From NCBI GenBank assembly GCA_023957275.1, contig JAMLHF010000041.1, positions 1 through 40,612 of the forward strand: a DNA stretch of 40,612 nucleotides, written 5' to 3'. Every line of letters starts with the position of its first letter. The first letter of the stretch is position 1. The notes below the pieces were generated by a model. It was not told where the DNA came from. It searched no databases and saw nothing but the letters and a program-made list of their open reading frames with translations. This DNA is from Lentimicrobium sp. Its GTDB lineage: Bacteria; Bacteroidota; Bacteroidia; Bacteroidales; Lentimicrobiaceae. Position numbers and translations under genes: made by a program. Below, piece by piece: positions 1 to 35,305 of this stretch.

Positions 1-191
1 TTGCTGACGATGATCCCAGAATTAACCCGCTGGGGGGCGCCATCGCCATTGGCCATCCGCTGGGCATGAGCGGTGCCCGCCTTATCACTACCGCCATTCA
101 TCAGTTGCGCCGCAACAACCTGAACAAAGCCCTTTGCACCATGTGTATCGGGGTTGGACAGGGTATAGCGATGGCGATTGAAAAAGTTTAA
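1..191 (+). CDS. Thiolase (acetyl-CoA acyltransferase), 3' end only
   Basis: The reading frame starting at base 3 is open from the window edge to the TAA at 189-191, giving about 62 C-terminal residues. It shows the two hallmark C-terminal thiolase motifs: [19 protein letters not shown], which carries the catalytic His, and [16 protein letters not shown], which carries the acid/base Cys. Thiolases make or break 3-ketoacyl-CoA bonds in beta-oxidation or acetoacetyl-CoA synthesis. The substrate cannot be told from this fragment; the NPLGGAIA form is shared by 3-ketoacyl-CoA and 3-oxoadipyl-CoA thiolases and acetyl-CoA acetyltransferases. The start lies outside the window. A terminator hairpin follows about 60 bases downstream, so this is probably the last gene of its transcript. 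Confidence 0.93.
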
Positions 192-33622: not shown

Positions 33623-33657
33623 AAAAAAAAGCAGTCCTTCTTTTCAAAAAGGACTGC
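33623..33657 (-). terminator. Terminator of the rpsU-xerC-hpf operon
   Basis: GCAGTCCTT (33631-33639) pairs perfectly with AAGGACTGC (33649-33657) and on the minus strand is followed by eight T (complement of 33623-33630). Its promoter-proximal arm shares its first base with the end of the downstream -7 promoter element. Confidence 0.93.
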
Positions 33658-33687
33658 AAAAATAGGAACTATTTTGACACGAACAAA
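33657..33687 (-). promoter_or_regulatory. Consensus promoter of the tRNA-tuf-secE-nusG-rpl-rpo block
   Basis: On the minus strand TTTG (33687-33684), a 19-base spacer and TATTTTTG (33664-33657) match the Bacteroidota housekeeping promoter TTTG-N19-TAnnTTTG exactly. Transcription should begin at about 33650-33654, inside the 5' arm of the hpf terminator, leaving a leader of about 155 bases before the first tRNA. Confidence 0.8.
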
Positions 33688-33721: not shown

Positions 33722-34018
33722 TTATTTTTGAAATTTACCTTTATGCTTATCCAGTTGCTTGCGCAATGCATCCACTGCTGTATCCGTCGCTTCCTCAAAG
33801 GTTTTACTTTGCTTCTTGGCAAACAGATCGTTACCCTTGATCTGCAACCTGATTTCAGCTATTTTGTTTTCGGGGGTTTCCACATTACCAAGCTTAAGGA
33901 TTACCTCACTTCCGATGATTCCGTCATAAACGCCTGAAAGTTTTTCTACCTTATCGTTAATAAATTCCTCAAGCTTTTTATCAGCTTTAAATTTGACGGC
34001 ATTGATACTTACCTTCAT
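33722..34018 (-). CDS. hpf: Ribosome hibernation-promoting factor, short form
   Basis: The protein has 98 residues and is the HPF/RaiA beta-alpha-beta-beta-beta-alpha domain only, without the dimerising tail of long HPF. MKVSINAVKFKADKKLEEFINDKVEKLSGVYDGIIGSEVILKLGN, then IAEIRLQIKGNDLFAKKQSKTFEEATDTAVDALRKQLDKHKGK are family signatures. HPF binds the 30S A/P sites and makes inactive 100S ribosomes in stationary phase. It is the third gene of rpsU-xerC-hpf, starting 17 bases after the xerC stop. Its ribosome binding site is an extended Shine-Dalgarno, unlike the neighbouring ribosomal genes. A strong terminator follows. Confidence 0.95.
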   Translation of the reverse strand: MKVSINAVKFKADKKLEEFINDKVEKLSGVYDGIIGSEVILKLGNVETPENKIAEIRLQIKGNDLFAKKQSKTFEEATDTAVDALRKQLDKHKGKFQK

Positions 34019-34030
34019 GATAACCTCCTT
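34019..34030 (-). promoter_or_regulatory. Extended Shine-Dalgarno of hpf
   Basis: The twelve bases directly before the hpf ATG read AAGGAGGTTATC on the minus strand. They match the classical anti-SD complement AAGGAGGTGATC at 11 of 12 positions. The AGGAGG core ends 5 bases before the ATG. Starts of rplK, rplA, rplJ, rplL, nusG, secE, tuf, groES and aroC in this window have no comparable match. Confidence 0.85.
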
Positions 34031-34035
34031 TTTTT

Positions 34036-34917
34036 TTATGCCCTTGGATGGGCGAGTTTGTATATAGATTTGAGTTTTTCAATGCTTATATGCGTGTAGA
34101 CCTGAGTTGCCGCCAGGCTCGAATGGCCAAGCAATTCCTTTATGGCGTTGAGGTCAGCACCTTCATTAAGCATGTGGGTCGCAAAAGTATGCCTGAGCAC
34201 ATGAGGACTTCGGCGCCCTTTCACACCTGCGGCTCCCAGCGCTCTGCTCACTTTCCTGTAGATAAACACCGGATAAGCCTTTTTTCCCTGATCAGTCACA
34301 ATTATTTCTGAAACACCGGTACCAGCAACACCTGATCTTAAATCTAGATATTCATCAATCAGGCCGATCAGCGCAGGAGTTACCGGTATTATCCGCTGCT
34401 TGTTACGCTTTCCGGTGACCTTGATCGTTGCTGCAGCATGATCCAGATCATTGATTCTCAGATTAATCAGCTCCGAAAGCCTTAACCCTGTGCAATAAAG
34501 TATTTCAACGATCAACATATCACGGCATTCATGGAAAGAAACCTGTTCATTTCTTTCATTCAGCACTGCTGCCATCTCATTCCTGGACACAAAAACAGGC
34601 AACCTCGAAGGCATTCCCAGCGAAGTTGCCCTGAGCAGGGGATTCTCGCTGATGAACCCTTCCTTAAGCAGATAACGAAAATAAACCTTGAGGGATGACA
34701 ATTTACGGTTGATGCTGCGCGCAGAGAGCCCCGAATCCACAAGTGATGCAAGCCATGAACGGACAATGGGGTAAGTAACCTGTGCGTCGTCGGTCAGATT
34801 ATATGAATTGTCACAATATTCCTGAAACTGAAGCAGGTCGGTTTTGTATGCATTCAGTGTATGCAGCGAATAGCGTTTAACGAGTAGTAAATAGTCGTAG
34901 AATGAATCTCTTATCAT
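34036..34917 (-). CDS. Tyrosine recombinase, XerC/XerD type
   Basis: The protein has 293 residues from the ATG at 34917. The N-terminal SAM-like domain (about 1-90) holds LHTLNAYKTDLLQFQEYC. The catalytic domain has all active-site residues: Arg146 (CTGLRLSE), Lys170 (VTGKRNKQRIIPV), His239 and Arg242 (SPHVLRHTFATHML), His265 (LGHSSL) and the nucleophile Tyr274 (TQVYTHI). Xer recombinases resolve chromosome dimers at dif; the length and setting in a housekeeping operon argue for a core Xer protein and not a mobile-element integrase. No dif-like site was recognised. XerC versus XerD cannot be decided by eye. Confidence 0.92.
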   Translation of the reverse strand: MIRDSFYDYLLLVKRYSLHTLNAYKTDLLQFQEYCDNSYNLTDDAQVTYPIVRSWLASLVDSGLSARSINRKLSSLKVYFRYLLKEGFISENPLLRATSLGMPSRLPVFVSRNEMAAVLNERNEQVSFHECRDMLIVEILYCTGLRLSELINLRINDLDHAAATIKVTGKRNKQRIIPVTPALIGLIDEYLDLRSGVAGTGVSEIIVTDQGKKAYPVFIYRKVSRALGAAGVKGRRSPHVLRHTFATHMLNEGADLNAIKELLGHSSLAATQVYTHISIEKLKSIYKLAHPRA

Positions 34918-35025
34918 GAACAAAAAAAGAAGAAAACTTTGTTTCCTTAATTACAACGTCTAAAATAAGACATTATTACCGGAAATCAAAATTTTCTTCC
35001 TTAAATCGCACTTAAATAAGGCGGC

Positions 35026-35220
35026 CTACTGATCCTGTGCCTGCTGAAGCTGCTGCACGTAGATTGCGTGCAGGCGCTGCTCGCGATTTTTAACTGAAGG
35101 CTTGGTAAATTTCTGCCTTTCACGCAGTTCTTTAACAACACCGGTTTTTTCAAACTTTCTCTTCAGTTTCTTTAAGGCCCTGTCAATGTTTTCGCCTTCT
35201 TTAACGGGTACGATAATCAT
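35026..35220 (-). CDS. rpsU: Ribosomal protein bS21
   Basis: The protein has 64 residues, full length: MIIVPVKEGENIDRALKKLKRKFEKTGVVKELRERQKFTKPSVKNREQRLHAIYVQQLQQAQDQ. The KRKFEKTGVVKELRERQKFTKPSVKNR core is diagnostic. bS21 binds the 30S platform next to the anti-Shine-Dalgarno, and in Flavobacteria it has been reported to help mask it. It is the first gene after a perfect consensus promoter (35275-35305) and leads xerC and hpf. Its own start (AGAGAGCGTATTCGC before ATG) has at most a weak, distant purine stretch. Confidence 0.96.
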   Translation of the reverse strand: MIIVPVKEGENIDRALKKLKRKFEKTGVVKELRERQKFTKPSVKNREQRLHAIYVQQLQQAQDQ

Positions 35221-35274
35221 GCGAATACGCTCTCTTTCTGTTAATGGTGAAAAAATAATTTCTTAAAAGGGGTG

Positions 35275-35305
35275 CAAAAATAGAACTATTCTCCGAATAA
35301 TCAAA
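35275..35305 (-). promoter_or_regulatory. Consensus promoter of rpsU-xerC-hpf
   Basis: On the minus strand TTTG (35305-35302), exactly 19 bases, then TATTTTTG (35282-35275) followed by CACCCC. This is a full match to TTTG-N19-TAnnTTTG. The predicted start is near 35270, about 50 bases before the rpsU ATG. The eight bases before or at the -7 (AATAGTTC) are shared with the tRNA-tuf promoter. Confidence 0.82.

Follow-up and report, generated by a model that had tools for sequence, protein, structure and literature searches.

RESULTS

The rpsU-xerC-hpf locus

The window analyzed here, meaning the whole stretch of 40,612 nucleotides (nts) of Lentimicrobium DNA, carries on its minus strand rpsU (35026-35220), xerC (start at 34917 by homology), hpf (33722-34018), tRNA genes, and tuf. 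Family searches confirmed the identities of hpf, xerC, rpsU, and tuf; the remaining gene names are those of an earlier note on this DNA (the original prediction). The features discussed below are as follows.

35275-35305, minus strand: promoter-like element TTTG-N19-TATTTTTG upstream of rpsU
35223-35239, minus strand: rpsU leader with an interrupted extended Shine-Dalgarno (SD) sequence, AGAAAG-a-GAG-c-GTATTC, a complement of the 15-nt tail of the genus with two single-base bulges
35026-35220, minus strand: rpsU, ribosomal protein bS21, 64 amino acids (aa), Tyr at position 54 (Pfam PF01165, NCBIfam TIGR00030)
34960-34990, minus strand: promoter-like element TTTG-N19-TATTTTAG inside the gap hairpin, differing from the TAnnTTTG consensus at one base
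34926-35002, minus strand: terminator-like hairpin separating rpsU from xerC; its outer stem has 21 pairs and a single bulged base, and UUUUGUUC and the xerC ATG come after it
34036-34917, minus strand: xerC/xerD-type tyrosine recombinase (NCBIfam TIGR02224, 302.7 bits, cutoff of 335 not reached)
34023-34031, minus strand: hpf SD sequence AAAGGAGGT, with TTATC (five bases) separating GGAGG from the ATG
33722-34018, minus strand: hpf, short ribosome hibernation-promoting factor, 98 aa (Pfam PF02482, 67.7 bits)

The sole Pfam domain found in HPF was S30AE (residues 3 to 95), with no second domain. The protein scored 38.8 bits against NCBIfam TIGR00741, slightly below the cutoff of 40.9, and 39.9 bits against NF007780, far short of the cutoff of 125. 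The nearest named loci were from Bacteroidales UBA5833, whose HPF is identical over 98 aa, and from Lentimicrobium.

The hpf leader and the 16S tail

The hpf leader reads xerC-stop-AAAAAAAGGAGGTTATC-ATG, with 17 nts between the xerC stop codon and the hpf ATG. The original prediction described a near-perfect extended SD here, and this was borne out: the 12 bases preceding the ATG (minus strand, ATG at 34018), AAGGAGGTTATC, match at 11 of 12 positions the sequence AAGGAGGTGATC, the complement of the E. coli-type anti-SD. Against the genus 16S tail, GGAAUACCUCCUUUCU, 10 of the 12 bases matched, nine of them as contiguous pairs (AAAGGAGGT, 34023-34031). The leader contains AGGAGGT, and in its predicted fold the A-run and GGAGG are unpaired while UUAUCAUG is paired (z = −1.1).

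Because the window's own genome assembly yielded no 16S in our search, we used the tail from two same-genus genomes (G482 and G495, the two among 19 family genomes that gave a match). Their CCUCC is intact, as the original prediction had asked to be checked; this holds for the genus. The 16S search patterns demanded CCTCC, so altered anti-SD cores could not show up. Extended to 15 nts, the genus tail is GAAUACCUCCUUUCU, and according to the numbering in PMC9976891, the mature 16S tail reaches its final CU. For relatives, the hpf, rpsU, xerC, tuf, rplI, and rpsR leaders were scored with the better of two tails. One genome (G073) had two 16S tails, GGAACACC and GGAAUACC, on contigs C23 and C35, reflecting either contamination or true rRNA variety.

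Rank of hpf within an SD-poor genome

The genome that includes the window comprises 4.41 Mb in 145 contigs, from which we sampled 1.12 Mb and called 764 genes. The sample was not random, since several contigs were picked for AAGGAGG-N7-ATG and a 3-kb rpsF-rpsR-rplI stretch was included deliberately; both choices favor the competitors of hpf, and the sample is, if anything, tilted toward SD-like sites. Genes were called by an in-house hexamer-score caller, their starts are possibly wrong, and windows of −20 and −25 rank them differently.

With a 13-nt tail, the pairing at hpf (−12.9 kcal/mol) ranked first among the 764 genes, as it did among 310 genes in 439 kb, and rpsU was second (−12.8); no control window in the 1.12-Mb sample reached −12 or below. 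With a 15-nt tail and a 25-nt window, hpf ranked fifth of 764 at −13.3, the best control window being at −12.9. Leaders pairing at −9 or better were no commoner than control windows (14/764 versus 13/764, 13-nt tail), and thus the genome is SD-poor; in the quarter of it sampled, SDs are not common, in agreement with the original prediction. At −11 or below there were eight SD windows but one control window, of 764 each (P = 0.04). The handful of genes that stood out for strong pairing includes hpf, rpsU, rplI, and a sigma factor. The original prediction also held that the neighboring genes lack an SD; indeed, all called genes in the window except hpf and rpsU scored −3.8 or weaker (secE was judged from sequence alone).

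A genome-wide count of AAGGAGG-N7-ATG gave 14 matches versus eight for the reversed pattern and was rejected as a test; because this fixed spacing misses hpf itself, we adopted gene-based scoring. Two other leaders can be recorded here. A sigma-70-family factor (L320:7858-8445, G000:C76), among the few strong-SD genes, has ACAGAAGGAGGCGTT ahead of its ATG (−12.2), and a 102-aa open frame (L095:7044-7352, G000:C1) that matched nothing in Pfam or NCBIfam has AAAAGGAGGAAACG ahead of its ATG.

Conservation of the hpf SD among relatives

We compared leaders in three sets of relatives. The order set consisted of 70 of the 138 genomes of the order with an hpf match (own genome excluded), 29 of them the best matches and 41 hand-chosen across the ranking; the named set was the best 80 of 186 loci and leans toward close kin; and the class set was 86 genomes from other orders of the class. 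We excluded rows before counting if they lacked a match, if the gene lay on the opposite strand, or if no start occurred close to where it was expected. This left, in the order, named, and class sets, 63/70, 75/80, and 61/86 rows for rpsU, 68, 79, and 72 for xerC, and 29, 58, and 29 for tuf.

Pairing of −8 or better at hpf was found in 62/70 order genomes and 75/80 named loci, so that the SD is conserved in related genomes, the test that the original prediction had set, and in 27/86 class genomes outside the order. The controls at the same threshold were low throughout: in the order set, xerC 1/68, tuf 0/29, and a window 26 to 45 nts upstream 1/70; in the named set, xerC 1/79, tuf 0/58, and control windows 0/80; and in the class set, xerC 4/72, tuf 0/29, and control windows 2/86. 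No shuffled tail equaled the real tail for hpf (0/200 in the order set and 0/200 in the named set); the corresponding numbers were 37 and 114 of 200 for xerC and 114 and 196 of 200 for tuf. The bases flanking the hpf SD differ among relatives while the SD is kept. The properties expected of a functional SD, complementarity to the 16S tail, proper spacing, and retention while the flanks diverge, were therefore all found at hpf, and we conclude that hpf carries a genuine SD that has been selected and is not a product of chance. Because it is conserved, the original observation is stronger than stated. HPF has no general need for an SD, however, since the SD is missing in 8/70 order genomes and 59/86 class genomes outside the order.

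A tree of 125 rows requires at least 15 changes of state for the hpf SD and 7 for a perfect rpsU SD. We considered a trade-off in which the SD lies on rpsU or on hpf but not on both. The raw table, which ignores phylogeny, looked suggestive, with an hpf SD in six of the 24 genomes that have a perfect rpsU SD, but the tree gave five independent pairs and a median sign-test P of 1, and we rejected the idea; across the class, these five pairs gave no phylogeny-independent link between the SD states of the two genes. Six genomes outside the order (L136 to L138, L183, L270, and L271; five are one family and L183 is of another) have both a perfect extended SD at rpsU (−15.4 to −17.8) and an SD at hpf (−9.0 to −11.8).

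An interrupted extended SD at rpsU

The original prediction saw a weak purine stretch at the start of rpsU and supposed that the SD had been placed on hpf instead. Neither claim held. The rpsU leader in the window, ACAGAAAGAGAGCGTATTCGC-ATG, contains in order all fifteen letters of the tail complement AGAAAGGAGGTATTC, with a single A and a single C inserted. With these two bulges allowed, the duplex with the 15-nt tail has an energy of −17.2 kcal/mol, the strongest complementarity among the 764 genes (25-nt window; a quarter of the genome sampled). Related leaders, in which the core of AAAG..AGGTATT is altered by a bulge, a deletion, or a mismatch, recur in many Bacteroidales. GTAT was present in 44 of 120 distinct Bacteroidales rpsU leaders, none of which (0/44) had the uninterrupted GGAGGTAT. 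A criterion that asks for uninterrupted strong pairing would miss these leaders. Shuffled tails equaled the real one for rpsU in 0/200 cases in the named set and 4/200 in the order set, and in 0/200 when the sets were pooled and a longer tail was used. Residue 54 of bS21, counted on the translation, is Tyr in the window, as it is in 201/207 bS21 proteins (several loci per genome counted separately).

The rpsU leader also tracked the 16S variant among the 36 genomes for which both tail and leader were known. All ten genomes with GTAT leaders had GGAAUACC; of five with GGTG leaders, four had GGAACACC and one had GGACCACC. The covariation of ten versus four gives an uncorrected P of 0.001 and comes from few clades, since a single family with perfect SDs supplies five of the ten GTAT genomes and another family supplies all four GGTG genomes with GGAACACC. 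The GGAAUACC tail occurred without a GTAT leader in 5/15 genomes (L126, L210, L230, L248, and L251), and ten order genomes with the GGAACACC tail had no complement of this kind in the rpsU leader.

Transcript layout

The original prediction placed hpf in an operon with rpsU. This is doubtful because of the terminator-like hairpin on the minus strand of the rpsU-xerC gap. The fold of this hairpin has an energy of −30.9 kcal/mol (z = −6.7), and 0/200 shuffles were as low. A gap hairpin with a T-run was found in 67/75 named loci (33/75 when shuffled), 38/62 order genomes (23 shuffled), and 56/68 class genomes (35 shuffled).

The hairpin includes a promoter-like element, which we compared with the promoter consensus element TAnnTTTG. 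A strict match to TTTG-N16-23-TAnnTTT was present in the gap in 45/75 named loci versus 14/62 order and 7/68 class genomes, and in 12/206 shuffled gaps of all sets; a promoter in the hairpin is thus typical of the nearer kin of the window. The window's own rpsU-xerC gap contains no strict match, its second element being one base off. In the window as a whole there were three promoter-like matches versus a mean of 1.0 in shuffles, three or more occurring in 10/100 shuffles, so that by count alone the element upstream of rpsU is not beyond chance. A transcript starting inside the gap hairpin could not form the hairpin. We infer that hpf probably sits off the rpsU transcript, with a strong terminator-like hairpin intervening. 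Given the hairpin and the promoter-like element, a link between bS21 and HPF via a shared mRNA is unlikely; a link via the state of the ribosome may exist.

A similar arrangement was seen downstream of hpf, at 33631-33687 (minus strand), where a promoter-like TTTG-N19-TATTTTTG abuts a terminator-like stem of 12 pairs with eight T residues. This element precedes the tRNA genes and tuf and resembles the rpsU-xerC gap.

SDs on rplI, rpsR, and other distal cistrons

For comparison, we scored the rpsF-rpsR-rplI loci of the order, using the best 30 of 59 matches, among them the window's own genome. At a threshold of −8 or better, pairing was found for 22/30 rplI, 12/30 rpsR, and 0/29 rpsF leaders. 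Although rpsR has been reported as an SD gene in Bacteroidales, we rejected it for the window's genome, in which rpsR lacks an SD (−2.5) and rplI has one. This rplI, encoding bL9 (L300:1009-1458, G000:C78), has the compact SD AAAGGAGGGAACATACC (−12.2). Across the sample of this genome, pairing of −9 or better occurred in 7/152 genes that lie −5 to 40 nts behind another gene versus 7/612 others (P = 0.011).

DISCUSSION

Bacteroidia are described as not being general SD users, and their ribosomes have been reported to be blind to SDs in vivo and in vitro; the anti-SD is sequestered in a pocket formed by bS21, bS18, and bS6 (PMC9976891). In F. johnsoniae, bS21 autoregulates its synthesis via the extended SD of rpsU. 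Expression of a tuf reporter with AGGAGGU increased by over 2-fold when bS21 was truncated and by 70% upon bS21 depletion, and mutation of Y54 of bS21 led to more translation from strong SDs (PMC9976891).

By analogy, the AGGAGGT core in the hpf leader, its complementarity to the tail of the genus, and the retention of Tyr54 in bS21 suggest that hpf is favored by ribosomes with a free tail. Our preferred explanation is that the hpf SD was selected in a lineage that hides its anti-SD, and that hpf and rpsU are favored by 30S subunits whose tail has been freed by the absence of bS21 or of the bS18/bS6 pocket; to us this proposal is evenly balanced between right and wrong. Its computed part comprises the pairing, the spacing, the rank in the sampled genome, the conservation, and the second 16S-tail complement at rpsU. 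The rest would follow if subunits with a free 3′ tail initiated better on hpf and rpsU than replete subunits do. A rise in incomplete subunits would then yield both more bS21, which completes subunits, and more HPF, which parks them. A xerC-hpf mRNA initiated within the rpsU-xerC gap would probably be the template for hpf translation, and rpsU and hpf would be linked through the composition of the ribosome and not through a shared mRNA. A broader form of the idea, that free-tail ribosomes throughout Bacteroidales selectively translate rpsU (through its bulged complement) and hpf (through its compact SD), turning incompleteness into both repair and hibernation, we put forward tentatively and would not be surprised to see fail. 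The original observation is thus confirmed, and its interpretation is partly supported; of the three refuting conditions named in the original prediction, the two examined here, loss of the hpf SD in relatives and a high SD frequency in this genome, did not go against it.

The main rival to the free-tail explanation is that the SD is a signal of distal cistrons, aiding genes that closely follow another gene, by reinitiation or with ordinary ribosomes, without any sensing of bS21. The gaps are short between xerC and hpf, rpsF and rpsR, and rpsR and rplI, and the leading gene rpsF has no SD in any of 29 loci, whereas the promoter-distal rplI and rpsR often do (22/30 and 12/30, own genome included); the excess of SDs among short-gap genes of the window's genome points the same way. 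Yet 145 of the 152 short-gap genes lack such a leader, Bacteroidia ribosomes are reported to be indifferent to SDs (PMC9976891), and rpsU, which stands apart from its upstream neighbor and has its own promoter-like element, nevertheless bears a complement to the 16S tail. We regard this account as somewhat unlikely.

A different free-tail state, such as the lack of bS18 or bS6, an immature 30S subunit, or idle ribosomes, might be what is sensed, bS21 not being the signal. The composition of the pocket allows for this (PMC9976891), and rpsR, which encodes bS18, has an SD in 12/30 Bacteroidales loci. In the genome that includes the window, however, it is rpsU that has the strongest 16S-tail complement sampled, while rpsR (−2.5) has no SD, and this variant seems to us improbable. 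That the hpf leader is a functionless A-run that happens to lie beside GGAGG in an SD-poor genome is scarcely credible: isolated GGAG cores do occur elsewhere, in 16/764 sampled leaders, but a chance motif would not be kept in 62/70 order genomes and 75/80 named loci despite differing flanks, nor would the real tail outdo all 200 shuffled tails.

The conserved SD of a hibernation factor, together with the overlooked complement at rpsU, yields a few candidate genes for regulation by SD pairing and allows the concept of specialized ribosomes to be tested in Bacteroidales with simple reporters. If the free-tail explanation is true, the completeness of ribosomes would be tied to entry into hibernation with no need for a dedicated regulator. 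A sensor of ribosome composition would be wired to hibernation, and a route for control of bS21 would exist in the sole order of the class reported to be without an rpsU signal.

Comparison with known systems

Two elements described here, the conserved SD at hpf in Bacteroidales and the interrupted form at rpsU, were not found in the literature text searched. The term "hpf" occurs 0 times in the main text of PMC9976891, in PMC8710568, and in PMC10783764, and no title or abstract in the searched literature describes an SD on hpf in Bacteroidota; Jha et al. 2021 may hold more.

The locus resembles the F. johnsoniae system in that complements of the 16S tail lie on ribosome-related genes, rpsU included, in a lineage with a sequestered anti-SD. 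As in the strong-SD reporter of that species, the core at hpf is AGGAGGT, and Tyr54 of bS21 is kept. The locus differs from that system in having its clean SD on hpf, whereas the rpsU complement in the window has two single-base bulges; an uninterrupted extended SD of the F. johnsoniae type (9 to 13 consecutive pairs) was not found at rpsU in the window. The bulges may mean a lower gain than that of the perfect Flavobacterium helix. In PMC9976891, pairing below −13 kcal/mol, calculated with another program and with ribosomal protein genes ranked, is the hallmark of autoregulated rpsU, a criterion that no Bacteroidales are stated to satisfy. With the programs differing, rpsU in the window is at −17.2 (15-nt tail, bulges allowed) or at −12.8 and second in rank (13-nt tail), and hpf, at −12.9 to −13.3, is at the edge of that threshold.

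HPF itself has the same single S30AE domain as the HPF/YfiA family and, at 98 aa, scores below the NCBIfam equivalog cutoffs. Its SD resembles those that some Bacteroidia have on ribosomal protein genes such as rpsR and rplI (Jha et al. 2021, as cited in PMC9976891 and PMC8710568): it is compact, of similar strength, and carried by a translation-apparatus gene distal to the promoter. Unlike rpsR and rplI, hpf encodes no ribosomal protein, and the phylum-wide screen, as described there, took in ribosomal protein genes. In our order samples, which differ in makeup, the SD is present at hpf in 62/70 genomes, at rplI in 22/30 loci, and at rpsR in 12/30.
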